Shown: positions 2 through 12,176 of the stretch, in pieces | Layout: every line of letters starts with the position of its first letter | Numbering within the stretch: position 1 is the stretch's first letter | Assembly (NCBI GenBank): GCA_007128865.1 | Contig: SKWP01000227.1 | Coordinates: forward strand, 1 to 12,603 | Reading direction: 5' to 3' | Length of the DNA stretch: 12,603 bases | Source: Paracoccaceae bacterium | Lineage (GTDB): Bacteria; Pseudomonadota; Alphaproteobacteria; Rhodobacterales; Rhodobacteraceae | Program-made: the position numbers and the translations under genes | Notes under the pieces: model-generated | Database searches by the model: none | What the model was told of the DNA's origin: nothing | The model's input: the letters and a program-made list of their open reading frames with translations, nothing else

Positions 2-1222
2 GACACCGGCACGCCGGGCTGTGTGGCCGCGATTGCCTCGCTGCCGAGCATGGAATGGTTTTCGCGTCAGGATCTGACCGAGGTTGCCGCCCATAACCGC
101 CGGCTGGTGGACCGGATCATTACCCGCGCCGATGATCTTGGCCTGCCGCTGCATTCCCCGCGCGAGGCGGAACGGCGCGGTGGGGCGGTGATGATGCGGC
201 TTCCCGACAAGCCCGAAGCCGCGGCCGCCGTCGGCGCGCTGGGGGTCGAAGGCTATTCGGTCGATTTCCGCGGCCCGGTCCTGCGCATGTCGCCGGGTTT
301 CGTGACCGAGGAAGCCGCCGTCGATGCGGTCTTCGACATCATGCGCAGCGTGCTGGACCGCCGCCGCGGCCGCCTTGCCGGCCGCGCACAGGCCATGCCC
401 ACGGCGAAGGGAGACACCATGTCATCGAACGAAATCCTGGGCGGCCTCGGCGCCATGCTGCTTTCCGGAAGGGTCCGGGTGGTCGACTGCACCGCCGTGC
501 TCGGCCCCCGGACACCGATCCTGCGGCTGCCCGAGGATTTCGCCAGAAACACCCCGAAGGTCGAGATCCACAAGATCAGCGAATATGATGCCGATGGCCC
601 CTTCTTTGCCTGGAACTGGATGGTTCTGGGCGAACATTCCGGCACCCATTTCGATGCGCCGCACCACTGGCTTTCGGGGCGCGACTTTCCCGATGGATTT
701 ACCGACACGCTCGATGTGCAGCGTCTGATCGCGCCGGCCAATGTCATCGACTGTTCGCGCGAGGCTGCCGAAGACCCCGATTTCCTGCTGACGGCCGCGC
801 ATGTGAAGGCATGGGAGGCCGAACACGGCGAGATCGGACCGGGCGAATGGGTGCTGATGCGCACCGACTGGGACAGGCGTGCCCATGACGAAGCGCTGTT
901 TCTGAACGAAGACCCGGACCCCCACGAGGACGGCTCGCACAGCCCCGGGCCGAGCCCGGAATGCATCGATTACCTGCTGTCTCGCGGCATTGTCGGCTGG
1001 GGCACGCAATGCATCGGCACCGATGCAGGCATGGCCGGCAAGTTCAGCCCGCCCTATCCGGCGCATAACTTCCTGCACCGCGACAACTGCTTCGGCCTTG
1101 CCAGCCTGTGCAATCTCGACCAACTTCCACCCAAGGGGGCAATCCTGATCGCTGCGCCGCTCAGGATCGAACATGGCACCGGATCGCCGATCCGGGCCCT
1201 GGCACTGGTGCCGCAAGGCTGA
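2..1222 (+). CDS. Class V PLP enzyme C-terminus fused in frame to a cyclase-family hydrolase (5' partial)
   Basis: The reading frame is open from the first complete codon at position 2 to the TGA at 1220-1222, so the gene begins before the window. Up to about position 355 it encodes the C-terminal small domain of a fold-type I, class V PLP enzyme of the kynureninase/aminotransferase kind: a GTP motif at the very start, an AAHNRRLVDRII helix, and the closing 'LRMSPGFVTEEAAVDAV' segment, which matches the 'R-x-SP-x-x-x-T-x-x-x-I-D' end typical of that family. About 20 Arg/Ala-rich residues follow, then a complete cyclase domain. No stop codon separates the two, which is unusual for activities normally made as separate proteins. 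A good ribosome binding site just before position 419 means the cyclase may also be made alone; that product is listed separately. The PLP lysine and large domain are outside the window, so the substrate cannot be judged. Confidence 0.7.
   Translation, partial: DTGTPGCVAAIASLPSMEWFSRQDLTEVAAHNRRLVDRIITRADDLGLPLHSPREAERRGGAVMMRLPDKPEAAAAVGALGVEGYSVDFRGPVLRMSPGFVTEEAAVDAVFDIMRSVLDRRRGRLAGRAQAMPTAKGDTMSSNEILGGLGAMLLSGRVRVVDCTAVLGPRTPILRLPEDFARNTPKVEIHKISEYDADGPFFAWNWMVLGEHSGTHFDAPHHWLSGRDFPDGFTDTLDVQRLIAPANVIDCSREAAEDPDFLLTAAHVKAWEAEHGEIGPGEWVLMRTDWDRRAHDEALFLNEDPDPHEDGSHSPGPSPECIDYLLSRGIVGWGTQCIGTDAGMAGKFSPPYPAHNFLHRDNCFGLASLCNLDQLPPKGAILIAAPLRIEHGTGSPIRALALVPQG
419..1222 (+). CDS. Cyclase-family metal-dependent hydrolase (kynurenine formamidase/isatin hydrolase superfamily), internal start
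   Basis: From ATG 419, preceded by the Shine-Dalgarno-like GAAGGGAG, the frame gives a 267-residue protein, a normal full length for the family. The signature HxGTHxDxPxH is intact as HSGTHFDAPHH at residues 73-83 and supplies the metal ligands and catalytic His. A later His (residue 216) and the closing 'NLDQLPPKGA' segment also fit. The family hydrolyses cyclic or linear amides, for example N-formylkynurenine or isatin. The position 12 residues after His216, which is Glu in KynB-type formamidases and, as I recall, Gln in isatin hydrolase, is Ala228 here in 'GLASLCNL'. The substrate is therefore unknown. No signal peptide is seen, so it is probably cytoplasmic. It is followed after 4 bases by the IorA-like gene, suggesting co-translation. 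Whether it exists free or only as the C-terminal half of the fusion is undecided. Confidence 0.75.
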   Translation: MSSNEILGGLGAMLLSGRVRVVDCTAVLGPRTPILRLPEDFARNTPKVEIHKISEYDADGPFFAWNWMVLGEHSGTHFDAPHHWLSGRDFPDGFTDTLDVQRLIAPANVIDCSREAAEDPDFLLTAAHVKAWEAEHGEIGPGEWVLMRTDWDRRAHDEALFLNEDPDPHEDGSHSPGPSPECIDYLLSRGIVGWGTQCIGTDAGMAGKFSPPYPAHNFLHRDNCFGLASLCNLDQLPPKGAILIAAPLRIEHGTGSPIRALALVPQG

Positions 1223-1226
1223 GGCA

Positions 1227-3386
1227 ATGGCCGAACGATCCTTCAAGGCCGAAGTCGAACATCTGCGCAAGGGCGCGGGCGAGACCTTCACCGGCGAAGG
1301 GATACTGGCGATCACCAAGGCGCTGCTGGAAAACGGCGTCGGTTATGTCGGCGGCTATCAGGGCGCGCCGATCAGCCATCTGATGGATGTGCTGGCCGAT
1401 GCAGAGGATCTGCTGACCGAACTTGGCGTGCGCTTCGAGGCGAATGCATCCGAGGCGGCGGCCGGGGCGATGCTGGCGGCCTCGGTCCACTATCCGATCC
1501 GCGGCGCGGTCACCTTCAAGGGGCCGGTGGGGGTGAATGTGGCCTCGGACGCGCTGGCCAACCTGTCGTCCAGCGGTGTCACCGGCGGCGCGTTGATCAT
1601 CGTGGGCGAGGATTATGGCGAGGGCTCCAGCATCATGCAGGAGCGCAGCCACGCCTTTGCCATGAAATCGCAGTTCTGGCTGCTGGACCCGCGCCCAAAC
1701 CTGCCTTCGATCGTCAAGGCGGTGGGGGACGGGTTCGATCTCAGCGAGGCGTCCGGCACCCCCGCCATGCTGATGCTGCGCATCCGCGCCTGCCATGTGA
1801 CGGGCCAGTTCGAAACCCGCGACAACCGCCGCCCGCCGCTGACCGTGGCCGAGGCGCTGTCGGCCCCGCGGCGCGAGGTATCGCGCATCGTCCTGCCGCC
1901 GATGTCCTACGCCCAGGAACAGGACAAGATCGCCAACCGCTGGCCCGCCGCGCTGCGCTTCATCCGCGACCACGGCCTGAACGAGGTCTTCGGCCCCGAT
2001 CAGGCGCCCGTCGGCATCATCTGCCAGGGCGGCATGTACAATGGCGTGGTCCGCGCGCTGCAGCGGCTGGGGCTGGCGGATATGCATGGCAACACTCAGG
2101 TGCCGATCTACTGCCTGAACGTGACCTATCCGATCGTGCCCGAGGAATTCCTCGGCTTCTGCGCCGGCAAGGATGCGGTGCTGGTCGTCGAGGAAGGCCA
2201 GCCGGAATTCATCGAGCAGCAGCTGGCGACCCATCTGCTGCGTGCAGGCATGCCGACGCGGCTGCATGGCAAGGATATCCTGCCCATGGCCGGCGAATAT
2301 ACCGGCAAGGTGATGCTGGACGGGATCGAGGGCTTCCTGCGCCGCGCCGCGCCCGATCAGCTGCCGGCGCAGGTCCGTGCCCCGAATGCCGAGGCACCGG
2401 TCATCCCCGACCTGTCGCAAACCGTTCCCGCCCGCCCGCCGGGTTTCTGTATCGGCTGTCCTGAACGGCCCGTCTTTGCGGCCCTCAAGCTGGTGCAGAA
2501 GGAACTGGGCGAACACCAGATCTCTGCCGATATCGGCTGCCACCTGTTCGGCTCGCTGCCGCCCTTCAACATCGGGGGCGCGACGATGGGCTACGGGCTC
2601 GGCCCGGCATCCAACGGCGCCTTTGACGGCGGGCGCGCGGCCGGCGGGGGCAAGCGGCCGATCTCGATCATCGGCGATGGCGGGTTCTGGCACAACGGGC
2701 TGACCTCGAGCTTTGGCAACATGACCTTCAACAAGGCCGATGCCGTGGCCGTGGTGGTGGACAATTTCTATTCTGCCGCGACCGGGGGGCAGGATATCCT
2801 GTCCTCGCGCGCGGAAAACCCCACCAAGGCCACCAACCACCCGATCGCAAAGGCCCTGCGGGGCATCGGCATCGGCTGGGTGCGCCAGATCGACCGCACC
2901 TATGACGTGGCGCGGATGCGCGACACCCTGCGCGAGGCACTGACATCCGGTTTGCCGGGGCCGAAGGTGATCGTGGCCTCAAGCGAATGCATGCTGAACC
3001 GCCAGCGCCGCGAAAAACCCCGGCGCGCGCAGGCGATAAGGGAAGGCCGCAGGGTCGAGGCCCCGCGCTTTGGCGTGGACGCGGCCATCTGCACCGGCGA
3101 TCACGCCTGCATGCGGCTTTCGGGCTGCCCTTCGCTGAGCCTGAAGACGCTGGACGACCCGCTGCGCGACGATCCGGTGGCCAGCATCGACCACAGCTGC
3201 GTCGGCTGCGGCAATTGCGGCGAGGTGGCCGAGGCGGCAATCCTGTGCCCGTCGTTCTACGAGGCCCGCGTCGTGCACAACCCCGGCCTGTGGGAACGCC
3301 GGCTGAACCGCTGGCGACAGGCCGCCATCGGCTGGCTGATGCGCCGGCGCGAACAGCGGCGGCTGCGTTTCGGGGGCGCGGGGTGA
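1227..3386 (+). CDS. iorA: Indolepyruvate:ferredoxin oxidoreductase-type 2-oxoacid oxidoreductase, alpha subunit
   Basis: This 719-residue thiamine-diphosphate enzyme subunit should, with the next gene, convert an aryl- or other 2-oxoacid plus CoA to acyl-CoA and CO2, passing electrons to ferredoxin. An N-terminal PYR-type domain (about residues 20-240) carries the presumed cofactor-activating Glu76 in 'ANASEAAAG'. CIGCPERP at 408-415 precedes the TPP-binding domain, which has GDG at 483-485 and 'DNFYSAATGGQ' at 512-522. The C-terminus holds an iron-sulfur domain: C-x5-C-x5-CP (Cys622, 628, 634) and C-x2-C-x2-C-x9-CP (Cys658, 661, 664, 674). The first motif has Asp where a fourth Cys is expected, which I believe is common in proteobacterial members. 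ATG 1227 is chosen because AAGG lies 9 bases before it and it just follows the previous stop; an ATG at 1173 would overlap the cyclase by 50 bases and add 18 unlikely residues. Substrate specificity is not proven by sequence. Confidence 0.88.
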   Translation: MAERSFKAEVEHLRKGAGETFTGEGILAITKALLENGVGYVGGYQGAPISHLMDVLADAEDLLTELGVRFEANASEAAAGAMLAASVHYPIRGAVTFKGPVGVNVASDALANLSSSGVTGGALIIVGEDYGEGSSIMQERSHAFAMKSQFWLLDPRPNLPSIVKAVGDGFDLSEASGTPAMLMLRIRACHVTGQFETRDNRRPPLTVAEALSAPRREVSRIVLPPMSYAQEQDKIANRWPAALRFIRDHGLNEVFGPDQAPVGIICQGGMYNGVVRALQRLGLADMHGNTQVPIYCLNVTYPIVPEEFLGFCAGKDAVLVVEEGQPEFIEQQLATHLLRAGMPTRLHGKDILPMAGEYTGKVMLDGIEGFLRRAAPDQLPAQVRAPNAEAPVIPDLSQTVPARPPGFCIGCPERPVFAALKLVQKELGEHQISADIGCHLFGSLPPFNIGGATMGYGLGPASNGAFDGGRAAGGGKRPISIIGDGGFWHNGLTSSFGNMTFNKADAVAVVVDNFYSAATGGQDILSSRAENPTKATNHPIAKALRGIGIGWVRQIDRTYDVARMRDTLREALTSGLPGPKVIVASSECMLNRQRREKPRRAQAIREGRRVEAPRFGVDAAICTGDHACMRLSGCPSLSLKTLDDPLRDDPVASIDHSCVGCGNCGEVAEAAILCPSFYEARVVHNPGLWERRLNRWRQAAIGWLMRRREQRRLRFGGAG

Positions 3387-4921
3387 CGCCCCTGCCGCAA
3401 AACGTCCGCGCCATTCCCGACGGCCACCTGCCCGGCGGCATCATCAAGCTTGCCATCATGGCTGTCGGCGGCCAGGGCGGCGGTGTGCTGACCGGCTGGA
3501 TCGAGGCGCTGGCCCGGTCGCAGGGCCTTGCAGTGCAGGCCACCAGCGTTGCGGGCGTGGCGCAGCGTACCGGCGCGACGATCTATTACATCGAGATCGC
3601 GCAGGCTGACGGCGGCACCCCGGTCCTGGCGCTGGCCCCTTCGGCGGGCGATGTGGACATCGTGATCGCAGCCGAGATGATGGAGGTCGGTCGCGCCATC
3701 CTGCGCGGCCTTGTCACGCCGGACCGGACGGTGCTGATCGGCTCGACCCACCGCGCGCTGGCGGTCAGCGAAAAGACGGCGCCGGGCGATGGCATCGCCG
3801 ATGCCGAAGAGGTCCGGGCGGCCGCCGAAATCGCGGCGCGCAGGCTGATCCTGGCAGATTTCGATCAGCTGGCGGTGGACGCGGGATCGATCATTTCCGC
3901 CAGCCTGTTCGGGGCGCTGGCGGGTTCGGGCGCCCTGCCCTTTCCCCGCACGGCTTACGAGGCGGCGATCCGCGCCGGGGGCAAGGGCGTCGATGCCAGC
4001 CTGCGCGCCTTTGACGCCGGTTTTACTGCGGCCCGGGCGGGGGGTGCCGATGCGCATCCGGGCGAGGCCCCTGCCCCTGCGCCCCCCTCGCCGCAAGGCC
4101 CCGCGCCGCTGCTGACCGCATGGCAACGGCTGGAGGATCGCGCCCGTGCCCTGCCCGCACCGGTGCAGGGCATGGCCATGGCCGGGTTGCAAAAGGTGGT
4201 GGCGTTTCAGGATCCGGCATACGGCGCCGAATACCTTGACCGGCTGGACCGCGTGCTGGCGCTGGACCGGACCGGCGATCACGCGCTGACCCGGCAAGCG
4301 GCCAAGCATATCGCCAATGCCATGGCCTATGACGACGTGATGCGGGTGGCCGATGAAAAGACCCGAAGCACGCGCTTTGGCCGTATCCGCGCCGAAATGG
4401 GGGCCGGTGAGGTGATGCAGTTGACCGACTATACCCATCCCCGCGGCGAAGAGATCGTGTCGATCCTGCCGGCCGGGCTGGGCCGGTGGGTTCATGCCCG
4501 GCCGCGCCTTGTGGCCTGGATCGACCGCCGCGTGAACCGTGGCCGGCGCCTGCGGACCGACCGGCTGCGGCCGTTCCTGCAATTGTGGCTGATCGCGGGG
4601 CTAAGGCGCTGGCGCCGCGGCACCCTGCGCCATGCGCAGGAGATGCGCCATCTCGAAGCCTGGCTGAACACGGCAATGGCCCAGGCAGACCGCGACCCGG
4701 CGTTTGCAATCGAAATCCTCTGCGCCCGGCGTCTGATAAAGGGCTATTCCGATACCCATGCCCGCGGCATGTCGAAATTCGACCGGGTCATGGAAGGGGT
4801 CGCATGTGTTGCCGGGCGCAAGGACGCGGCAGACTGGACCCGCCGGCTGGTCACCGCCGCGCTTGCCGATGAAGACGGCAAGGTGCTCGATGGCGCCCTG
4901 CGAACCATCCGCTCGTTCTGA
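3383..4921 (+). CDS. iorB: Indolepyruvate oxidoreductase beta subunit-like protein with DUF6537-type C-terminal domain
   Basis: This 512-residue protein is the partner of the preceding alpha subunit. Its N-terminal quarter is the gamma-type domain of 2-oxoacid:ferredoxin oxidoreductases: GGQGG at residues 29-33 and VAQRTGAT at 59-66, followed by a Y-Y-x-E. A low-complexity Ala/Pro-rich linker (roughly residues 220-245) leads to a long helical C-terminal region resembling DUF6537, including 'LIKGYSDTHARG' near residue 455, a segment I associate with the long proteobacterial IorB form; archaeal IorB proteins are only about 200 residues. The start is a GTG at 3383 whose last three bases overlap the alpha-subunit TGA (GTGA, 3383-3386), a classic translational-coupling arrangement that favours 1:1 synthesis. 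The frame is open further upstream, but those codons lie inside the alpha gene. The stop is followed by 40 non-coding bases before the next gene. Confidence 0.86.
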   Translation: MTPLPQNVRAIPDGHLPGGIIKLAIMAVGGQGGGVLTGWIEALARSQGLAVQATSVAGVAQRTGATIYYIEIAQADGGTPVLALAPSAGDVDIVIAAEMMEVGRAILRGLVTPDRTVLIGSTHRALAVSEKTAPGDGIADAEEVRAAAEIAARRLILADFDQLAVDAGSIISASLFGALAGSGALPFPRTAYEAAIRAGGKGVDASLRAFDAGFTAARAGGADAHPGEAPAPAPPSPQGPAPLLTAWQRLEDRARALPAPVQGMAMAGLQKVVAFQDPAYGAEYLDRLDRVLALDRTGDHALTRQAAKHIANAMAYDDVMRVADEKTRSTRFGRIRAEMGAGEVMQLTDYTHPRGEEIVSILPAGLGRWVHARPRLVAWIDRRVNRGRRLRTDRLRPFLQLWLIAGLRRWRRGTLRHAQEMRHLEAWLNTAMAQADRDPAFAIEILCARRLIKGYSDTHARGMSKFDRVMEGVACVAGRKDAADWTRRLVTAALADEDGKVLDGALRTIRSF

Positions 4922-4961: not shown

Positions 4962-5387
4962 ATGGACAAGCCCATGAGCGATACCGCCCCGAATGCCCGC
5001 CCGCCCTATCGTGTGCTCCTGCTGGGTGCGGCAACACCGGGCTGGTATGCGGCCGATGCCGAAGAACGCCGCGAAAGGGCCCTGCCGCGGCTTGTGGAGG
5101 TCTGCGCGGGGTGGGTCGACAGGGGTGCGCGGCTGATCACCACGCTGGATGACGATATCCTCAAGGTCGGCCAGCCCGCGGCCGATGATTTCACCTGGTA
5201 TCTGGTCTATGAGGTCGATGACCTGCAAACCGTGTCCGACATGCTGCACGATTTCCGCATCGAAGTTGACGGCGCGCGGCTGGATCGCTGGTTCCGGCTC
5301 GAAGCCCGCATCTGCCGGCCGTTCTTTCCCATAGAGCCGATCAGCCAAAGCGCAGCCAGCCGGCCCGTTCCTGCAGGGCGGCAATGA
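4962..5387 (+). CDS. Small conserved-looking protein, possibly distant IacB/darcynin-like
   Basis: This 141-residue cytoplasmic-looking protein is the last gene of the plus-strand operon. The N-terminus is polar and Pro-rich; the body starts with a hydrophobic beta strand (YRVLLLGAATPGWY), then an ERR-containing helix, 'ARLITTLDDDILKVG', and 'FTWYLVYEVDDLQTVSDMLHDF'. This strand-helix-strand layout suggests a ferredoxin-like alpha/beta sandwich. The 'VLLL-x-x-ATP-x-W ... ERR' opening recalls IacB/darcynin-type small proteins linked to aromatic degradation, but I rate that resemblance as weak, and no catalytic residues can be named. ATG 4962 is preferred because GGAA lies 7 bases upstream; ATG 4974 is a possible alternative giving 137 residues. 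The final 15 or so codons overlap the end of the opposing minus-strand gene, so its tail (Ala/Pro/Arg-rich) may not be under normal constraint. Confidence 0.7.
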   Translation: MDKPMSDTAPNARPPYRVLLLGAATPGWYAADAEERRERALPRLVEVCAGWVDRGARLITTLDDDILKVGQPAADDFTWYLVYEVDDLQTVSDMLHDFRIEVDGARLDRWFRLEARICRPFFPIEPISQSAASRPVPAGRQ

Positions 5388-6060
5388 TGGCCGTGGCAAC
5401 CGGGTGTTGCCTGTCGGGCGAAAGGTCGAACCGGGCCTCGGTCTCGATCAGCGTGCCGGGCATGCGGTACTGCAGCGCCAGGACTTGGGGGCTTCCGGCC
5501 TGAGTGCAGGTCAGACGAACCGAGGTGGCCGCGATGCCCGGCCCGGCGAGGGCAGCGGCTGTTGCGGTGTTGAGATGATCGGGAAAGCGCAGCGCAGCCT
5601 CGGCCAGCGGCCCGTCGAAAACGGGGCCTGGCGCGGGGCCAAGGCCGGGTGCGGATTGCCGGACCAGCAGCCGCACCGGGGTTTCCCGGGGCCACCGCGC
5701 CGGGCCGGCAAGGGTGGCAGTGAAAAGACGCAGGCGGTTGCCACTGGCCTGAGCCACCCGGCGCAGGCGTTCGGCAAACGCGGTGTCGGCCAGCGCCGCG
5801 GCGCCGACCGTCCAGAGATCACCCTCGGCAAGCAGTCTTTCGCCATGGTCGCGCAGGGCGCCGGGGCCGGCGGTGTCGATGGTCAGGGGTGCCGGTTGCC
5901 AGCCGCATGCCCCCCTTCCGATCAGCTCTTGCAGGCGGTAGCCGGGGGCGTTCGACAGCCATTCGGCCACGGCTGCGCCAATCCGGCCCTGCCCGACAAG
6001 ATTGACAGCCGCCGCACGGCCCGCCCCGCCGGTGCCGGCAGGACGGGCCGGGTTCGTCAC
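5341..6060 (-). CDS. L-aspartate dehydrogenase-like oxidoreductase (NadX/DUF108 family), atypical
   Basis: The 239-residue protein has an N-terminal NAD(P)-binding Rossmann fold with GQGRIG at residues 23-28, followed by the family landmarks 'DLWTVGAAALAD' (81-92, equivalent to the S-V-G-A-L-A-D segment) and 'FPDHLNTATAAALAG' (159-173, equivalent to F-P-x-N-x-N-x-A-x-x-x-x-L-A-G). Canonical members oxidise L-aspartate to iminoaspartate or run the reductive amination. The His-Glu that normally follows the next strand is absent: the aligned stretch reads SPQVLAL, placing Leu194 at the His site. The reaction may therefore be a different amine/imine or hydroxyacid conversion. It starts with GTG at 6060, overlapping the binding-protein stop by 4 bases (GTGA, 6057-6060), and is the last gene of the minus operon. 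Its 3' end overlaps the convergent small gene by 47 bases. The family call is fairly sure; the substrate is not. Confidence 0.75.
   Translation of the reverse strand: MTNPARPAGTGGAGRAAAVNLVGQGRIGAAVAEWLSNAPGYRLQELIGRGACGWQPAPLTIDTAGPGALRDHGERLLAEGDLWTVGAAALADTAFAERLRRVAQASGNRLRLFTATLAGPARWPRETPVRLLVRQSAPGLGPAPGPVFDGPLAEAALRFPDHLNTATAAALAGPGIAATSVRLTCTQAGSPQVLALQYRMPGTLIETEARFDLSPDRQHPVATAIIAALQERAGWLRFG
5395..5411. terminator. Small stem-loop just after the plus operon, possible weak terminator
   Basis: GGCAAC (5395-5400) and GTTGCC (5406-5411) form a perfect 6-bp stem with a CGGGT loop, starting 8 bases after the plus-operon stop codon. No T-run follows, so it is not a standard intrinsic terminator. 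It could mark or stabilise the 3' end of the plus transcript. It also lies inside the coding region of the opposing gene, so it may be coincidental. Confidence 0.2.
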
Positions 6061-7316
6061 TCGATCGAGGCGCCGAATGCGGCGACCTCTTCAAGCGTGA
6101 TGTACTGGATTTCGGTGATCGCCCCGTCGGCGCCGAAGTTCCAGAACACCGCCGGCGCCGACACGTCGCCATACTGGTCAAAGGTCACCGCACCGGTGCC
6201 ACCCTGATAGGAGACCGGTTGCCCGGCCGAAAGCAGCTCCATCGCACGGGCAAAGCCGGCAACGTCACCGTCGATCGGCTCGCCGGCCGGGTCGGTGACC
6301 ATCGGCACCTTGGCAGCGATCTGGGCGCCGGTCGCATCGCGCCCGGCCGCGTGATAGGCCAGCAACGATATCGCCGCGGCATCGAAGGCGTTCGGCAGGC
6401 CCGGACCGCTGGGCGGTGCGTTGAAATGGGCGGTATAGGCATCGACAAAGGCCGTGGCCGAACCGGTGCGCGGGGTCGAGCTGTCGGTGCCGATGAAATT
6501 GCCCAGATGCTGCATGCCGACCGCTTCGCGGAACTCATCGGATTTCAGCGAATTGGTACCGATGAATTCGGTGGTCCCGCCCAGCGAGATCCATTCGCGC
6601 ACGACCGCGATGCCTTCCTTGGGATAAAGCGCCAGATACAGCGCTTCGGGACGGGTCGCCAGCGCCTGGGTCACCTCGGCGCGATAGCTGGGCTGATCGT
6701 CGTTGATGGCGATCTGGGCCTTTACCTCGATCCCCGCTCCGGCAAAGGCAGCCGCGGCGAGCGAGCCCAGATCCTGCCCCCAGTCGTCGTTCTTGTACAG
6801 GATGGTGATGGTTTCGTAACCGGCCTCCTGCGCCTTCATTGCGGCGACAAGGGCCTGCACGTTGGAGGTGGCAAAGGTGCGGAAGAACAGCCCGTTGGCG
6901 CCCCCCTCGGCGGCGATCTCGGTCAGGCGGGTTGTGGATGAACAGCAGGAAATCTGCATCACCCCCGATGGTGCGGCCACCGAGGTCAGGATCGGTATTG
7001 TCACCCCCGAGGCGACGGCACCGATCAGAAGCTGCACCCGGTCCAGATCGACCAGCGCCCGGGCGGCATCGACCCCCACGCGCGGGTCGACCTGGGTATC
7101 GCGCAGGATCGCATTGACCCGGCAGCCATCGACGCCGCCGGCCTCGTTGATCATGTCGGCGACCCACAAGGTGGTTTCGGCGATGGGTTTGCCCCAGTCC
7201 ACCGAGGTCGGGTAAACCACGCCCACGGGAAGCGTGCAGTCTGCCGCTGCGGTGCCGGCATGGGCCGTCACGGCCAGGGCGGCCAGGGCAGCGATGCTCG
7301 TCAGGTTGTTTTTCAT
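6057..7316 (-). CDS. ABC transporter periplasmic substrate-binding protein, LIV/HAAT type
   Basis: This 419-residue protein begins with a Sec signal peptide (Lys-containing start, hydrophobic core, AHA and AAA cleavage candidates near residues 20-26), so the mature protein is periplasmic. The body is a type I periplasmic-binding fold like LivK/Peripla_BP_6: 'VGVVYPTSVDWG' near the start, 'DMINEAGGVDG', the 'QLLIGAVASGVTIPI' strand-turn, and 'YKNDDWGQDLG' in the second lobe. Family members bind branched-chain or aromatic amino acids, amides, urea or aromatic acids. The ligand-site segment, usually similar to 'ISPASTSP', here reads ISCCSSTTRLT, with two adjacent cysteines. ATG 7316 is only 2 bases past the LivM stop, with GGAG in the right position. 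Being distal to the permeases is less usual, since the binding protein is often the most strongly expressed component. Family call strong; ligand unknown. Confidence 0.9.
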   Translation of the reverse strand: MKNNLTSIAALAALAVTAHAGTAAADCTLPVGVVYPTSVDWGKPIAETTLWVADMINEAGGVDGCRVNAILRDTQVDPRVGVDAARALVDLDRVQLLIGAVASGVTIPILTSVAAPSGVMQISCCSSTTRLTEIAAEGGANGLFFRTFATSNVQALVAAMKAQEAGYETITILYKNDDWGQDLGSLAAAAFAGAGIEVKAQIAINDDQPSYRAEVTQALATRPEALYLALYPKEGIAVVREWISLGGTTEFIGTNSLKSDEFREAVGMQHLGNFIGTDSSTPRTGSATAFVDAYTAHFNAPPSGPGLPNAFDAAAISLLAYHAAGRDATGAQIAAKVPMVTDPAGEPIDGDVAGFARAMELLSAGQPVSYQGGTGAVTFDQYGDVSAPAVFWNFGADGAITEIQYITLEEVAAFGASIE

Positions 7317-7318
7317 TG

Positions 7319-8317
7319 TCAGGTGACTCCCTTGTTGGTGGTGGCGGTCGTATTGGTGCCGGCCGGTCTTGTACGATCCGGGCCGGCAGAGGTTTCCAGA
7401 CGTTCGGGCAACAGCCCCTGCGGGCGCCAGAGCAACATGCCCACGATCACCGAGCCGATAAGGATATACTGGATCGAGCCGGTGTAAATCTGCATCGCCA
7501 CAGGGGCGTGCCGCGCCAGGAGAAAGCCGCTGGCAGTCCAGGCCGCCCAGATCAGGAAGGCGCCGAGGATCGCGCCGCGGTTGTTGCCGGCGCCGCCGAC
7601 AATCAGCATGGCCCAGATCTGGAAGGTCAGGATCGGCGCCAGATCCTGCGGACTGACGAATGCATAGAAGCTTACGTAAAGCCCGCCGGCAACACCCATG
7701 ATCATCGATCCGATGACAAAGGATGTCAGCCGCAGCCGGGTGGGGTTCTTGCCCAGCGACCGCGCCGCGGTTTCATCCTCGCGGATGGCACGAAGCGCGC
7801 GGCCGAAGGGCGACCGCACCAGCCGTTCCAGCCCGATGTAGACAAGCACCAGCACCAGCAGCACAAAGGCCAGAAACAGCAGCCCATAGACGAAATTGTT
7901 GCCGACCGCGGCCTCGAACGGGCGCGGAAACCCGCGCAGCCCGCGGGCGCCACCGGTCAGCCATTCGGCATTGCGGGTCAGGCTTTCAAAGGCGATGGCA
8001 ACGCCGAAGGTGGATATCGCCAGATAATCGTGTCGCAATCGGACCGTCAGCAGGCCAACGATCCAGGCAAGCATCCCGGCCAGCACGACGCCCCCGGCAA
8101 GGGCGACCAGAAACGGCAGGCCGAAACCGCCCAGCACCGTTGCATCGGCCCGCCCGCCAAGGATCATGGTTCCATAGGCACCGGCGCCGAAAAAGGCGAC
8201 CACACCGCCATTGAACAGCCCCGTGTAGCCCCAGTGCAGGTTGAGCCCCAGCACCGCGATGGCAAAGATTGCCGCCATGGTGGAAAAGAACGCCAGATAG
8301 GAGATCATTCCGATCAT
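7319..8317 (-). CDS. livM: Branched-chain amino acid-type ABC transporter permease (LivM-like)
   Basis: This 332-residue integral membrane protein has about eight hydrophobic segments. The N-terminal 'NLHWGYTGLFNGGVVAFFGAGAY' region (quoted in part) is the LivM-family landmark (N-L-x-x-G-x-x-G-x-x-x-x-G). 'GRALRAIREDETAARSLG' is the cytoplasmic coupling loop that contacts the ATPases, and 'MLIVGGAGNNRGAILGA' is the typical late motif. It pairs with the neighbouring LivH-like permease to form the transmembrane channel. The C-terminal tail after 'LLWRPQGLLPERL' is Thr/Pro-rich and not conserved-looking. The start ATG at 8317 overlaps the LivH stop (ATGA, 8314-8317). The frame stays open upstream to about 9271, but that stretch is inside LivH and is not used. 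Confidence 0.9.
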   Translation of the reverse strand: MIGMISYLAFFSTMAAIFAIAVLGLNLHWGYTGLFNGGVVAFFGAGAYGTMILGGRADATVLGGFGLPFLVALAGGVVLAGMLAWIVGLLTVRLRHDYLAISTFGVAIAFESLTRNAEWLTGGARGLRGFPRPFEAAVGNNFVYGLLFLAFVLLVLVLVYIGLERLVRSPFGRALRAIREDETAARSLGKNPTRLRLTSFVIGSMIMGVAGGLYVSFYAFVSPQDLAPILTFQIWAMLIVGGAGNNRGAILGAFLIWAAWTASGFLLARHAPVAMQIYTGSIQYILIGSVIVGMLLWRPQGLLPERLETSAGPDRTRPAGTNTTATTNKGVT

Positions 8318-9231
8318 CGGTGCAGCTCCTCTCCGAACAGGCCATGGGGGCGCAGGAGCATCACCGCGATGATGATCAGGAACGGCATCGCCGGCGTATA
8401 GCCCGATGGCAGGATCATCAGCGACAGGCCCGAGGCGATGCCGACGATGAAGCCGCCCAGCACCGCGCCATAGACGCTGCCGATTCCGCCAACGATGGTG
8501 GCGGCAAAGACCGGCAGCACGAAGTTGTGCCCCAGATGCGGCGATATCTGGTTGGTCAGGCCATAGAACACCCCGGCCGCGGCCGAAAGCCCGCCGCCAA
8601 GCACCCAGACCGAAACCACCATCCGCGAAAGCCGCACCCCCGACACCTGCGCGAGATCGGGGTTTTCCGCGACCGCCCGATGCGAATAGCCAAAGGTGGT
8701 ACGGGTCAGCACCACATGCAGCATGAGCATCAGCACCAGCGCCGCGCCCAGCACGAAGACCTGATCGGGCTTGATCAGCAGCAGCGGGTCGAAGCTGACC
8801 ACGATGGCAAAGGCGATATCGGGGGAATAGAGCTGTGCACGATGGCCGAACGCCAGGGTGATGATGTTGCGCAGGATCAGCGCCACACCGAAGGACGCAA
8901 ACACCATCGACAGCGGCCCGGCGTTTTCGCGGATGCGCTTGAACACCAGCTTGTCCAGCACCACCGCCGATGCCCCCGTCACCACCATCGCCAGAACCAC
9001 CGAGACCGAAAGCGTCCAGGTCAGGCTCAGCGGCCCGATCTTTTCGTGCATGAAGGGTATCAGCGCCGCCAGCAGCCGGTCGAACACCAGCGCCGAATAG
9101 GCCCCGATGCCAAGCAGTTCGGCATAGGAGAAATTGGCAAAGCGCAGCATGTGCATGATCAGCGTCAGCCCGATCGCGCCCAGCGATATGATCGATCCGG
9201 TCAGGATGCCATCGACAAGGTGCTGGATCAT
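8314..9231 (-). CDS. livH: Branched-chain amino acid-type ABC transporter permease (LivH-like)
   Basis: This 305-residue membrane protein is the usual length for LivH. It opens with 'LVDGILTGSIISLGAIGLTLI' and then 'MLRFANFSYAE', matching the family pattern G-x-x-x-G-x-x-Y-A-L-x-A-x-G-L-x-L-I followed by the N-F-A/S-x-G/A-E segment. The coupling loop is 'THFGYSHRAVAENPDLAQVSG'-like (seen as TTFGYSHRAVAENPDLA), and 'VFAATIVGGIGSVYGAVLGG' near the C-terminus matches the G-G-x-G-S-x-x-G-A motif. About eight transmembrane spans can be seen. It forms the heterodimeric permease with LivM. The start ATG at 9231 overlaps the LivF stop (ATGA, 9228-9231). No missing family features are seen, so it is probably functional. 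Confidence 0.92.
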   Translation of the reverse strand: MIQHLVDGILTGSIISLGAIGLTLIMHMLRFANFSYAELLGIGAYSALVFDRLLAALIPFMHEKIGPLSLTWTLSVSVVLAMVVTGASAVVLDKLVFKRIRENAGPLSMVFASFGVALILRNIITLAFGHRAQLYSPDIAFAIVVSFDPLLLIKPDQVFVLGAALVLMLMLHVVLTRTTFGYSHRAVAENPDLAQVSGVRLSRMVVSVWVLGGGLSAAAGVFYGLTNQISPHLGHNFVLPVFAATIVGGIGSVYGAVLGGFIVGIASGLSLMILPSGYTPAMPFLIIIAVMLLRPHGLFGEELHR

Positions 9232-9956
9232 GCCGCTCCGACCCTTCTGCCGCCCAGATAGATTTCACCAACCGCCGGATCGGACAGGATGCTTTCGGCG
9301 GGGCCGTCGATCTGGTTGCGGCCTTCGGCGAGGATATAGCAATGGTCGGCCACCCGCAGCGCCTGCTTGACGTTCTGTTCCACCAGCAGGATCGACACGC
9401 CTTTTTCCGTCAGCCCGCGCGCAAGGTCGAGAACCTCGCGCTGGATCTTGGGCGACAGCCCGGCCGAAGGTTCGTCCATCAGCATCACCCGCGGCCGGCT
9501 GGCCAGCGCCATCGCCACCGCCAGCATCTGCCGCTGCCCGCCCGAAAGCGAACCGGCGCGGTCACCGCGCTTTTCGGCCAGCGGCGGGAACAGCGTGTAA
9601 AGCTCGTCCAGCCGCGTCGCGCGGTCGGGCACCCGCCGCAGCACCAGTGCGAGGTTTTCCGAAATCTTCAGGCTGCGAAAGATGTTATCGGTCTGCGGCA
9701 CATAGGCCAGACCCAGGCTTGCCATCTGGTCGGGGCGGATGCCGGTGATGGGTTTGCCATCCAGCATCACCCGCCCGGCACTGACCGGCACAAGGCCGGC
9801 GATAGCCTTGATCAGGGTGGATTTTCCGGCGCCGTTCGGACCGATGATGGCGCAAAGCGTGTCGCGCCTCAACGTCAGGTTCACGTCGCGCAGGATCGGC
9901 AGGTCGCGCACATAGCCCGCCGTGAGCCCCTCCACGCTGAGCACCGCGTCGGTCAT
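9228..9956 (-). CDS. livF: Branched-chain amino acid-type ABC transporter ATPase (LivF-like)
   Basis: This 242-residue cytoplasmic ATPase has every required motif: Walker A GPNGAGKST near residue 39, Q-loop in 'AYVPQTDNIFRSL', ABC signature LSGGQRQ near 138, Walker B VMLMDEPS near 158 and switch His region in 'LLVEQNV', where, as is normal for LivF proteins, the H-loop reads EQNV rather than EHD. 'DNIFRSLKISENL' is the typical LivF version of 'V-F-x-x-L-T-V-x-E-N-L'. It forms the heterodimeric nucleotide-binding pair with LivG. The start ATG at 9956 overlaps the LivG stop (ATGA, 9953-9956). Confidence 0.93.
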   Translation of the reverse strand: MTDAVLSVEGLTAGYVRDLPILRDVNLTLRRDTLCAIIGPNGAGKSTLIKAIAGLVPVSAGRVMLDGKPITGIRPDQMASLGLAYVPQTDNIFRSLKISENLALVLRRVPDRATRLDELYTLFPPLAEKRGDRAGSLSGGQRQMLAVAMALASRPRVMLMDEPSAGLSPKIQREVLDLARGLTEKGVSILLVEQNVKQALRVADHCYILAEGRNQIDGPAESILSDPAVGEIYLGGRRVGAA

Positions 9957-10723
9957 GCCGGCGACCCGAGATAGGCATCCAGCAGCACCGGGTTGCTGCG
10001 CGCCTCTTCGCCGGTGCCCTGAAACACCACCCGCCCCTCGGCAAGCGCGATCACCGGGTCGCAGTGGCGCATGACGAAATCCATGTCATGTTCGATGATC
10101 ACAAAGCTGGTGCCGCGGCGGTTCAACTCTTCGATCCGTTCCACAAGGATGCGGGTCAGCGACGGGTTCACGCCGGCGGCCGGTTCGTCAAGCAGGATGA
10201 TCGTCGGGTCGCCCATCAGCGCACGCGCCAGTTCCAGAAGCTTCATCTGCCCGCCGGAAACCTTGCCGGCCGGCTGGTCGGCCAGCCTGTCCAGCGTCAT
10301 GAATTCGAGGATATCCATGGCCTTGTCGCGCATCCGCCGCTGTTCGGCCGCCATGCTACGACGGCGGAACAGGGCGCCCAGCACGGTTTCGCCGGTCTGC
10401 GCCGAAGGCACGAGCATCACGTTTTCCAGCACCGTCATGCGGCGGAACGGGCGCGGAATCTGGAATGTCCGCGCAAGGCCGCGTGCGAACAGCGCATCGG
10501 GGCGCAGGCCGGTCACGTCCTGACCGTCAAGCAGCACCTGACCCGCGGTTGGCGGCAGTTCGCCGGCGATCATGTTGAAAAGGGTCGTCTTGCCGGCGCC
10601 GTTGGGGCCGATCAGCCCGGTCATGCGGCCGCGGCCGAAATCGAGCGTCACCGAATCAACGGCCCGGAACGCGCCAAAATCCCGCGTCAGGCCGCGGGTG
10701 GAAAGGATCGGCCCGGCGGTCAT
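9953..10723 (-). CDS. livG: Branched-chain amino acid-type ABC transporter ATPase (LivG-like)
   Basis: This 256-residue ATPase has Walker A GPNGAGKTT near residue 38, the LivG-specific 'ARTFQIPRPFRRMTVLENVM', the signature VSGGQMK, Walker B IILLDEPAAGVNP, and the H-loop FVIIEHDMDFVM. The 'P-A-A-G-x-N-P' after Walker B and the 'ARTFQ' Q-loop distinguish LivG from LivF. The start ATG at 10723 overlaps the aldo/keto reductase stop (ATGA, 10720-10723). The same frame is open upstream to 11188, but it would run through the aldo/keto reductase gene and the added residues look non-coding. It is the first transporter gene in the operon, which places the two enzymes ahead of the importer. Confidence 0.93.
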   Translation of the reverse strand: MTAGPILSTRGLTRDFGAFRAVDSVTLDFGRGRMTGLIGPNGAGKTTLFNMIAGELPPTAGQVLLDGQDVTGLRPDALFARGLARTFQIPRPFRRMTVLENVMLVPSAQTGETVLGALFRRRSMAAEQRRMRDKAMDILEFMTLDRLADQPAGKVSGGQMKLLELARALMGDPTIILLDEPAAGVNPSLTRILVERIEELNRRGTSFVIIEHDMDFVMRHCDPVIALAEGRVVFQGTGEEARSNPVLLDAYLGSPA

Positions 10724-11799
10724 GTCGCCGCCCCGTGCACGGCATCCTGGGGATTGGTGTTGAGGTTGTATTTCATGATCCGGCCATGCCGGCCGTTCCG
10801 ATCCCCTTCGAGCCCGTAAACGGGGCCGGAGGGACCGGCCGCCTTGCCAAGCACGGCATCGATCGCGGCCCGGTCGGCCGCATCCAGCTTCAGGCCGAAG
10901 ACCTCGAGCGTTTGCGGAAGGTGCCTTGCATAGCGCGCACCGACGATCGCGGCGGCAACCTGGGGCTGGTCCAGAACCCAGCGCGTTGCGACCGAAGCCA
11001 GCGAAACGCCATGCCGGTCCGCCACCGCCCGCAGCGTTTCGAGCAGGGTCTGGAACAGATCCCATGGCCCGAATTCGTCGATGATCAGCCGGTACTTCAC
11101 CAGACTGCGGTTTTCGAAGGCAAAGCCGGGGTCGGGCCTGCCAAGCCAGGCATCGGTCAGGAACCCGCCGGCCAGCGTACCGTAGCACAGGAACTGCATG
11201 TTTCGCGCCGCAGCCCAGGCGGCAAGGCGCCCCGCCGGCCGCCGGTCGAGCAGGGAATACTGCACCTGCGCCGATACGAGATCGAACCCGTCATCGACAA
11301 AACGCCCCATCGCCCCGGCATCCCAGTTCGTGGTTCCCAGATTGCCGATCTTGCCCTTGTGCTGGCATTCCTTCAGCACCTGCAGCGCGGAAACCGGATC
11401 GCCGATCTCGATATCCCACCAGAAGAACTGCACCAGATGCAGCCGTTCGATGCCCAGCCGCAAAAGCGACCGGTCGACGATCGCCTCGATCTCTTCGGGC
11501 CGGATATCGGCCAGGCGGGCAAGGTCGGGAACAAGCTTGGTATGGACGATCACCCGGTCGGCGAACCCGGCACCGCGCCGGCGGCGGATATCGGCAATGA
11601 AGGCACCGATCATCTCTTCCACGCCCCTGTAGATATCGGCGCAGTCGAATGTGGTGATGCCAGCGTCGAGGAACGCCTCCATATCCGCGATGGCCGCGGC
11701 GCGGTCCACCGGGCCGTGGTCGCCGGCAAGCTGCCAGCCGCCCTTGATCACCCGCGAAATCCGGTGGCCCGGGCGAAGGTCGGTCGTTTCAGGCGTCAC
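10720..11799 (-). CDS. Aldo/keto reductase-family protein lacking the catalytic His
   Basis: The 359-residue protein shows the aldo/keto reductase barrel in order: 'RVIKGGWQL' at the first strand, 'GITTFDCADIYRGVEEMIG' (quoted from residues 47-65) with Asp52 and Tyr57, the Lys strand 'RVIVHTKLV' with Lys88, 'SLLRLGIERLHLVQFFWWD', 'IGNLGTTNWDA', 'SAQVQYSLLDRR', and the late cofactor segment 'AAIVGARYARHL'. Family members reduce carbonyls with NADPH. Three of the four catalytic-tetrad residues (Asp52, Tyr57, Lys88) are present, but the His position ('L-V-Q-x-H-W') is Phe126. It has a C-terminal extension of about 40 residues ending in 'MKYNLNTNPQDAVHG'. It starts with GTG at 11799, overlapping the preceding stop (GTGA, 11796-11799). 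Its place directly behind the TIGR04076-like gene suggests a functional pair. Family call sure; enzymatic activity uncertain. Confidence 0.85.
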   Translation of the reverse strand: MTPETTDLRPGHRISRVIKGGWQLAGDHGPVDRAAAIADMEAFLDAGITTFDCADIYRGVEEMIGAFIADIRRRRGAGFADRVIVHTKLVPDLARLADIRPEEIEAIVDRSLLRLGIERLHLVQFFWWDIEIGDPVSALQVLKECQHKGKIGNLGTTNWDAGAMGRFVDDGFDLVSAQVQYSLLDRRPAGRLAAWAAARNMQFLCYGTLAGGFLTDAWLGRPDPGFAFENRSLVKYRLIIDEFGPWDLFQTLLETLRAVADRHGVSLASVATRWVLDQPQVAAAIVGARYARHLPQTLEVFGLKLDAADRAAIDAVLGKAAGPSGPVYGLEGDRNGRHGRIMKYNLNTNPQDAVHGAAT

Positions 11800-12176
11800 T
11801 TCGGGTCATCTCCCGACTGCCAGTAGGGGGTCGTGCGCGCATCCGGCAGGCCGGTTGTCGCGGCATGCGAATACCACCGCCGCCCCTCGCGGTGAATACG
11901 GAACCTGCCGCCGCAGTGCGGATCGGGGCAGGCAATCTCGGCGTCGGTCGACATCCAGTCACCGGCTGCAGTTTCGCGTTGCTTGGCCGGCAGCAGCGGC
12001 AGGACTGCGGCCAGGGCATACATCGATATCTTCTGGCCCGCCTCGAAAACGAGGTTTTCGCCGATGACCCGAAAGCTTTCGCCCTCGATGTGGCGACACA
12101 CCGGCGTCCGGCCATCCAGCACCGTTTCGACCCGCAGGTCATAGAGCCAGAAGCCCTTGTCGCCGTCCCGATCCAT
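11796..12176 (-). CDS. TIGR04076-like small protein, first gene of the minus operon
   Basis: The 126-residue protein has no signal peptide or membrane segment. 'YDLRVETVLDG' opens a beta strand, Cys27 follows in 'PVCRHIEGESFRV', 'YALAAVLPLLPAKQR' forms a helix, and 'DAEIACPDPHCGGRFRIHR' gives Cys83 and Cys88. This strand, 'GE/D-x-F', helix, 'ACPDP' order fits the TIGR04076 family, whose function is unknown; the C-x4-C pair plus Cys27 could bind a metal or be redox active, which is inference. ATG 12176 is preceded by a GGCGGGGG stretch that may serve as ribosome binding site, and no upstream in-frame start fits. It is promoter-proximal and transcribed divergently from the GntR regulator. Its stop overlaps the aldo/keto reductase GTG. 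Confidence 0.72.
   Translation of the reverse strand: MDRDGDKGFWLYDLRVETVLDGRTPVCRHIEGESFRVIGENLVFEAGQKISMYALAAVLPLLPAKQRETAAGDWMSTDAEIACPDPHCGGRFRIHREGRRWYSHAATTGLPDARTTPYWQSGDDPK

Follow-up and report, generated by a model that had tools for sequence, protein, structure and literature searches.

Introduction

Isatin hydrolases are enzymes of known structure whose mechanism has been studied (PMC6117287), and in the formation of anthranilic acid by the route that the indoleacetate degradation (iad) loci encode, both isatin and isatinic acid have been detected (PMC9613470). We found no assignment in the literature of the isatin source for the isatin hydrolases of the bacteria considered here. 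We describe a gene at the beginning of a 12,603-nucleotide stretch of DNA (hereafter the window) from a Paracoccaceae bacterium (contig SKWP01000227.1, assembly GCA_007128865.1), in which a kynureninase-like domain of the pyridoxal 5'-phosphate (PLP) enzymes is fused in frame to an isatin hydrolase B domain. On balance, we think that its product is a bifunctional catabolic enzyme that would convert an amino acid and water to L-alanine and isatinate, the latter passing to IorAB. No title or abstract among the literature matches listed dealt with such a fusion or with the release of isatin by a PLP enzyme, although this is not proof of absence.

For the hydrolase half, the closest known counterpart is the Labrenzia aggregata isatin hydrolase B (LaIHB; PDB 4j0n), whose chain residues 1–262 align end to end with residues 1–266 of the window's domain. 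The copy from IAM 12614 is 78.6% identical to that domain, and the metal, aromatic, and GLAS motifs are common to both. LaIHB is encoded by a separate gene, as in the 53 stand-alone rows of the hydrolase tree described below, whereas the window's domain forms the C-terminal half of a 665-amino-acid chain with an internal ATG. The counterpart of the PLP half, the kynureninase of Pseudomonas fluorescens (PDB 1qz9), differs from it: the fusion lies far under the cut-off of the kynureninase model TIGR01814 and carries Leu for Tyr and Gln for His.

The iad loci of Variovorax and Bradyrhizobium resemble the window in having an IorA/IorB pair (window 1227–4921). A possible difference is that the proteins scanned in the window include no Rieske oxygenase (IadDE) or coenzyme A (CoA) ligase, although the contig opens within the fusion and no genome-wide search was aimed at the Rieske oxygenase; in the window, isatin is predicted to be formed by the PLP domain as front end. 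An Azospirillum cluster is like the iad loci in combining IorAB with a Rieske oxygenase, an AMP-binding protein, and a salicylyl-CoA 5-hydroxylase. A plasmid cluster of Caballeronia sp. SBC1 (L138, L141) resembles the window in its PLP gene, which belongs to one family with the window's (46.5% identity), and in having branched-chain ATP-binding cassette (ABC) transporter genes, IorAB, and a cyclase of the isatin hydrolase type, but its genes are unfused, its hydrolase is of the GLQC (A) type (48.3%), and a thioesterase, a salicylyl-CoA 5-hydroxylase, and further catabolic genes are attached. Treatment of this cluster and those of Paraburkholderia as one pathway via their cupins was rejected, because the cupins of both clusters are unrelated by BLAST.

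The Fused Gene

A single open frame, 406 codons long and ending in its sole stop, occupies positions 2–1222 of the forward strand. It remains open on the 5' side, as the window starts at base 1 of its contig (C141); the source genome is 66.86% complete, and the start of the fusion gene is absent from its assembly. Pfam models matched KYNU_C (PF22580) at residues 34–100, barely over the gathering score (27.2 bits versus 27), and Cyclase (PF04199) at residues 162–342 (E = 9.5e-34), in agreement with the in-frame, two-domain fusion proposed in the initial annotation of this DNA. The complete PLP domain expected upstream is supplied by a 665-amino-acid protein, P0002, which is 99% identical to the window frame over 140 residues and 99.5% identical over the entire shared part. 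Its layout comprises a PLP domain (residues 1–384), a linker (385–398), and a hydrolase (399–665).

The window accordingly carries, all on the forward strand, the C-terminal third of a kynureninase-like class V PLP domain (2–376, equivalent to P0002 residues 260–384), an Arg/Ala-rich linker that differs in length and sequence between relatives (377–418), and the isatin hydrolase B domain (PF04199; 419–1222). The remainder of the PLP domain, including the catalytic Lys, lies outside the contig edge. The part within the window retains an Arg (284–286; R354 of P0002) that aligns with the Arg in the segment IMRFGFTP of the P. fluorescens kynureninase and is present in all 64 full-length fusions that we aligned. 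No Rfam family matched anywhere in the window at gathering scores, and a promoter and terminator scan of positions 1–1400 returned a single promoter-like site, within the hydrolase region, and no terminator.

The Hydrolase Domain

Among solved structures the hydrolase half is most similar to LaIHB (E = 5.5e-147), followed by isatin hydrolases A (E about 1e-78) and, last, by kynurenine formamidases (E = 4e-4 to 8e-4). Three isatin hydrolase motifs are described in PMC6117287: a metal motif, HxG[T/A]HxDxPxH; an aromatic pocket, WxW or FxW; and a signature, GLAS or GLQC. All three occur in the window, as HSGTHFDAPHH (635–667), WNW (611–619), and GLAS (1094–1105), on the forward strand. Across the full-length fusions the metal-motif residues H471, H475, D477, P479, and H481 are kept in 64/64, with Arg between P479 and H481 in three; both Trp of the pocket are likewise kept in 64/64, and the signature is GLAS in 59 and GIAS in five. 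With the arylformamidase model TIGR03035 (cut-off 223.05 bits), the window reached only 30.4 and 32.4 bits and three full fusions 26.5–28.4 bits, and the corresponding motif of KynB is given as I(L/I)E, where the fusion has GLAS (PMC6117287).

We thus rejected a kynurenine formamidase identity, which the initial annotation had assumed, on the model score and the motif, and on sequence grounds we assign this half to isatin hydrolase B. Several sources name the fusion proteins "kynurenine formamidase," a label that is doubtful because the isatin hydrolase motifs are present and nearly invariant in the 64 fusions.

The PLP Domain

Kynureninase and cysteine desulfurases are the first-ranked solved structures for the PLP domain, and a model of this domain from locus L003 (48 rows) has a predicted local distance difference test score (pLDDT) of 92.9. 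Canonical membership of either family was rejected, as the model cut-offs are not reached: three full fusions scored 42.4, 47.3, and 47.7 bits with TIGR01814 (cut-off 246.4) and 47.8–56.8 bits with the SufS-type cysteine desulfurase model TIGR01979 (cut-off 475.1). Alignment with 1qz9 places Leu-Lys at the PLP site instead of the Tyr-Lys of kynureninase, in which the active-site Tyr of the pair has a role at the PLP site, and Gln at the kynureninase His that follows Asp. These residues are conserved in the full-length fusions (Lys in 63/64, Leu and Gln each in 64/64). In the remaining protein, P0086, Ile replaces the catalytic Lys, representing either a sequence error or an inactive PLP domain. 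We regard this half as a fold-type-I domain that is kynureninase-like, as the initial annotation had supposed, albeit one that fails the kynureninase model.

A sample of 295 genomes from the family contained 11 besides the window's that carry the fusion. Tryptophan 2,3-dioxygenase (TDO) is present in nine of these 12 fused genomes (above the cut-off in eight), and the same nine encode a kynureninase above the cut-off, a few kilobases from the TDO gene on the same contig. One further genome (G227) has a kynureninase slightly under the cut-off, and two, G000 (incomplete) and G201, have neither. Where the fused PLP domain was listed in the kynureninase search (five of 12 genomes), it scored 37–60 bits against the cut-off of 246.4. 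In those nine genomes, the kynureninase paired with TDO and the fused PLP domain are distinct proteins.

These results bear on two readings that keep the PLP domain at kynureninase chemistry. One, put forward in the initial annotation, is that the fusion unites kynurenine formamidase with kynureninase, which follow one another in classical tryptophan breakdown. It can draw on the KYNU_C match at its cut-off, the names given by several sources, and a TDO-family gene near one stand-alone PLP relative, but it is very unlikely in view of the arylformamidase scores (26.5–32.4 bits against 223.05), the replacement of the KynB motif (PMC6117287) by GLAS, and the TDO and adjoining kynureninase found elsewhere in 9/12 fused genomes, and it leaves IorAB unexplained. 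The broader idea, that neighboring steps are placed on one chain, survives as the best reading.

The second possibility is a diverged kynureninase that forms anthranilate from kynurenine or hydroxykynurenine while the hydrolase separately treats isatin, in which case the two branches would converge on anthranilate and not be consecutive. The top rank of kynureninase among solved folds speaks for it, as do PLP relatives in clusters without isatin hydrolase, one of them beside a TDO-family gene. The substitutions of Leu for Tyr before the catalytic Lys and of Gln for His, the scores of the three full fusions (42.4–47.7 bits against 246.4), and the kynureninase already encoded in nine of 12 fused genomes (with a tenth slightly below the cut-off) lead us to consider it unlikely.

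Distribution and Age of the Fusion

When the best 80 of 325 related loci were taken, both domains were covered in 48, of which 45 are continuous without a stop and three (L033, L054, and L068) are truncated or split; the other 32 match the hydrolase only. Together with those of the 11 family genomes and the window's own, these 45 open fusions give 57 sequences, 47 of them distinct, and the domain order seen in the window is repeated in its relatives. Precomputed domain assignments place Aminotran_5 and Cyclase together in 117 of the best 120 of 203 matched proteins. No plasmid record covers 80% of the query among the 183 with a match. In 385 genomes drawn across the class (E of 1e-60 or better) we found no fusion besides the window's; 12 other genomes matched, each by the hydrolase part, and one of these (G055) has a separate PLP gene. 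A metagenome bin named Granulosicoccaceae (L058) has the fusion, which may reflect transfer or a binning error.

A tree of the hydrolase domain, built by a quick method from 103 rows, places all 50 fused rows on one side of one branch, with 99% support in the Shimodaira–Hasegawa-like approximate likelihood ratio test (SH-aLRT). The 47 fused rows of the PLP tree (68 rows, midpoint root) lie within a group with 100% support. Three stand-alone PLP rows (L115, L116, and L117) also sit in that group and may have lost their hydrolase domain. Both trees are accounted for by a single old fusion together with a small number of subsequent separations or early side branches.

The alternative of an assembly error or a recent stop-codon loss takes some encouragement from the position of the window at a contig edge in an incomplete genome and from the variable linker. 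We rejected an isolated assembly error, as the same stopless fusion is found in 11 family genomes and 45 loci, and also the recent stop loss suggested in the initial annotation, since the hydrolase tree unites the fused rows on one side of a branch; with 57 sequences (47 distinct) sharing the open fusion and 99% SH-aLRT support for that branch, we give this alternative almost no credence. The linker may still derive, as that annotation proposed, from intergenic DNA with a ribosome-binding site, but it would be as old as the fusion.

Linker and Internal Start

The join between the domains (377–418) is poorly conserved in the full-length fusions, with a mean column identity of 0.48 at P0002 residues 381–398 and 0.53 at residues 399–414, compared to 0.80–0.90 in the domain blocks. 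It ends at an in-frame ATG (419–421, forward strand) preceded by a Shine–Dalgarno-like AAGGGAG (407–413, forward strand; computed duplex energy −8.7). An ATG at this position or at most three codons away occurs in 26 of the 47 distinct fused genes, in 22 of them in the same alignment column, and the count was unchanged when repeated without picking the best ATG. Pairing with the 16S ribosomal RNA tail upstream of the internal ATG has a median of −6.55 versus −2.6 for 760 other in-frame ATGs (Mann–Whitney p = 3e-11, relatedness ignored), and is about like that of 37 fusion starts (median −5.0). L076 and L077, the earliest-branching fused rows of the PLP tree, both carry the internal ATG; at least five changes are needed to place it on the tree.

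The ribosome-binding site and ATG singled out in the initial annotation are therefore conserved beyond chance, and the retention of the ATG together with the strength of its Shine–Dalgarno pairing supports a shorter second product. Species that keep the ATG, including the window's, probably make a free isatin hydrolase from this start, and the earlier suggestion of two products from one frame is plausible to that extent. The ATG was retained in 9/9 genes with IorA directly downstream and in 17/38 others (Fisher p = 0.0025), an association that we do not claim because it comprises only three to four independent pairs.

Association with IorAB and Predicted Function

An IorA-like 2-oxoacid:ferredoxin oxidoreductase alpha subunit (1227–3386, forward strand; start placed by alignment with relatives) begins 4 bases past the fusion stop, and an IorB-like beta subunit of the PRK08312 family (3383–4921, forward strand; above the cut-off) follows, its GTG start overlapping the IorA stop. 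IorA of at least 75% identity is found in all 12 fused genomes, in four of them at most 0.6 kb from the fusion. In the family sample, 63/295 genomes have IorA at 62% identity or more, and all 50 genomes with a hydrolase of the fusion type (at least 60% identity) have IorA. IorA lies within the fetched stretch in 28 of 32 stand-alone hydrolase loci (L080–L111); two of the other four stretches are short and two (L080 and L093) are not. Stand-alone PLP genes occur in 21 genomes, 19 of them with IorA, and of 20 stand-alone PLP stretches, seven, which were chosen to include a hydrolase match, have hydrolase or IorA genes. The PLP gene is divergent from the hydrolase gene in L097 and L110. A CoA-hydroxylase homologue is present in 10/12 fused genomes, a count taken from the fused genomes alone.

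Linkage of the PLP gene to isatin hydrolase and IorAB, fused or unfused, thus extends over both alpha- and betaproteobacteria. This linkage and the first-ranked kynureninase and cysteine desulfurase structures speak against a PLP domain that has aminotransferase or other PLP activity on a compound with no relation to isatin and is kept on the chain for co-expression only. We consider that reading improbable, even though many reactions use the class V fold and the weak model matches are broad.

We infer the following reactions, their order, the substrate, and the IorAB product from these associations, and put the bifunctional enzyme forward with somewhat more belief than doubt. An amino acid, probably an oxidized one of the tryptophan type, would be imported by the branched-chain-type ABC importer encoded nearby, and an importer of the amino acid type agrees with an amino acid substrate. 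The PLP domain would then split the amino acid past its beta carbon and release L-alanine, as kynureninase and the cysteine desulfurases do. Alanine is released by cysteine desulfurases and selenocysteine lyase, and kynureninase cleaves dihydrokynurenine by a retro-aldol reaction. The C-terminal Mn-type isatin hydrolase would open isatin to isatinate (2-aminophenylglyoxylate), which, as an alpha-keto acid, is a fitting substrate for the adjoining IorAB, with a predicted exit as anthraniloyl-CoA, which we take to be the IorAB product from isatinate. Alternatively, lactam opening by the hydrolase may come before release of isatinate by the PLP domain, with an equal net result.

A PLP domain that both sets alanine free and supplies the substrate of the hydrolase should itself have a substrate equal to isatin plus alanine. 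Dioxindolylalanine (C11H12N2O4) is the sum of isatin (C8H5NO2) and alanine (C3H7NO2), and it is listed among the major known tryptophan degradation products (PMC8228365). As a tentative proposal, the PLP domain could have a new activity, that of a kynureninase-type retro-aldolase that cleaves dioxindolylalanine to L-alanine and isatin, the isatin being opened on the same chain, or the two steps occurring in reverse order. In Variovorax, C8H7NO3 is listed as a likely late intermediate of the iad route (preprint PMC12633357); this is the formula of isatinic acid, and the hydrolase step of the bifunctional enzyme agrees with it. The same preprint considers that IadI, annotated as a kynurenine formamidase, may be a broad amidase.

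Several observations weigh against the bifunctional enzyme that we favor. We know of no activity on record for the PLP family of the fusion, and a model of the whole fusion built from 64 close homologues was poor (pLDDT 61.9) and was not used. Most fused loci among the best 80 of 325 have no IorAB within 5 kb; two genomes (G070 and G228) have the PLP gene with neither partner; and 13 of the 20 stand-alone PLP stretches, some on short contigs, are without isatin hydrolase or IorAB, including those of Paraburkholderia (L136, L137), Alloyangia (L135), and Sulfitobacter (L139, L140). On the L140 plasmid, isatin hydrolase and IorAB lie about 26 kb away, and in the L135 strain both are on another plasmid. 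Since some stretches hold PLP relatives but no isatin hydrolase, members of the family may act on other substrates. The internal ATG is missing from 21 of the 47 distinct fused genes, and neither the co-occurrence nor the Shine–Dalgarno tests take account of relatedness. Finally, a nine-gene Variovorax set, iadC-K2, is reported to restore anthranilic acid without iadA/iadB, and a revised route has been proposed (preprint PMC12633357), so that IorAB is dispensable for anthranilate in that organism.

Other Features of the Window and Related Loci

The importer is encoded by five genes on the reverse strand (6057–10723): a binding protein (6057–7316), two permeases (7319–8317 and 8314–9231), and two ATPases (9228–9956 and 9953–10723). 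Next to these, on the same strand, is an aldo/keto reductase (10720–11799); some of the fused loci have relatives of it close to the fusion. Branched-chain ABC genes and a window-like aldo/keto reductase accompany the fusion in L034, L036, L037, L041, L043, L044, and L047; both are absent within 5 kb of most fused loci. A TIGR04076 protein (11796–12176, reverse strand) adjoins the reductase, a pairing repeated in fused locus L063. A short aspartate-dehydrogenase-like gene (5341–6060, reverse strand; Asp_DH_C, E = 2.5e-10) overlaps the binding-protein gene and has no match listed in the fetched loci. A small open reading frame 3' of IorB (4962–5384, forward strand) has no family above the cut-off and a weak match to chlorite dismutase (E = 0.012).

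Three related loci have unusual contents. In Alloyangia pacifica (L135, 6884–12140) some 3 kb separate a stand-alone PLP relative from a gene of the TDO family and amino-acid ABC genes, and the stretch has no isatin hydrolase. A gene for an aldolase of the dihydrodipicolinate synthase family in Sulfitobacter dubius (L114, 10863–11825) is followed by isatin hydrolase, MarR, and IorAB; this aldolase might provide a different front end for isatin formation. The isatin hydrolase–FAD–MarR–IorAB cluster of L106, a record that bears the title Nocardioides marinus, shows identities typical of alphaproteobacteria, and the record is possibly contaminated or mislabelled.

Conclusions

The fusion is a real, old, and conserved, probably bifunctional protein made of known enzyme families, and the step that it carries out is probably new. 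Its conservation points to a reaction neighboring isatin hydrolysis, and suggests that proteins of this kind are mislabelled as "kynurenine formamidase." The fusion is also a natural example of a second domain whose own start codon, after fusion, has been retained by some lineages but not by others; if both predicted products are made, one gene would yield the fusion and a free isatin hydrolase via the internal start. If the dioxindolylalanine reading is true, these bacteria would have a dedicated route for the use of oxidized tryptophan.
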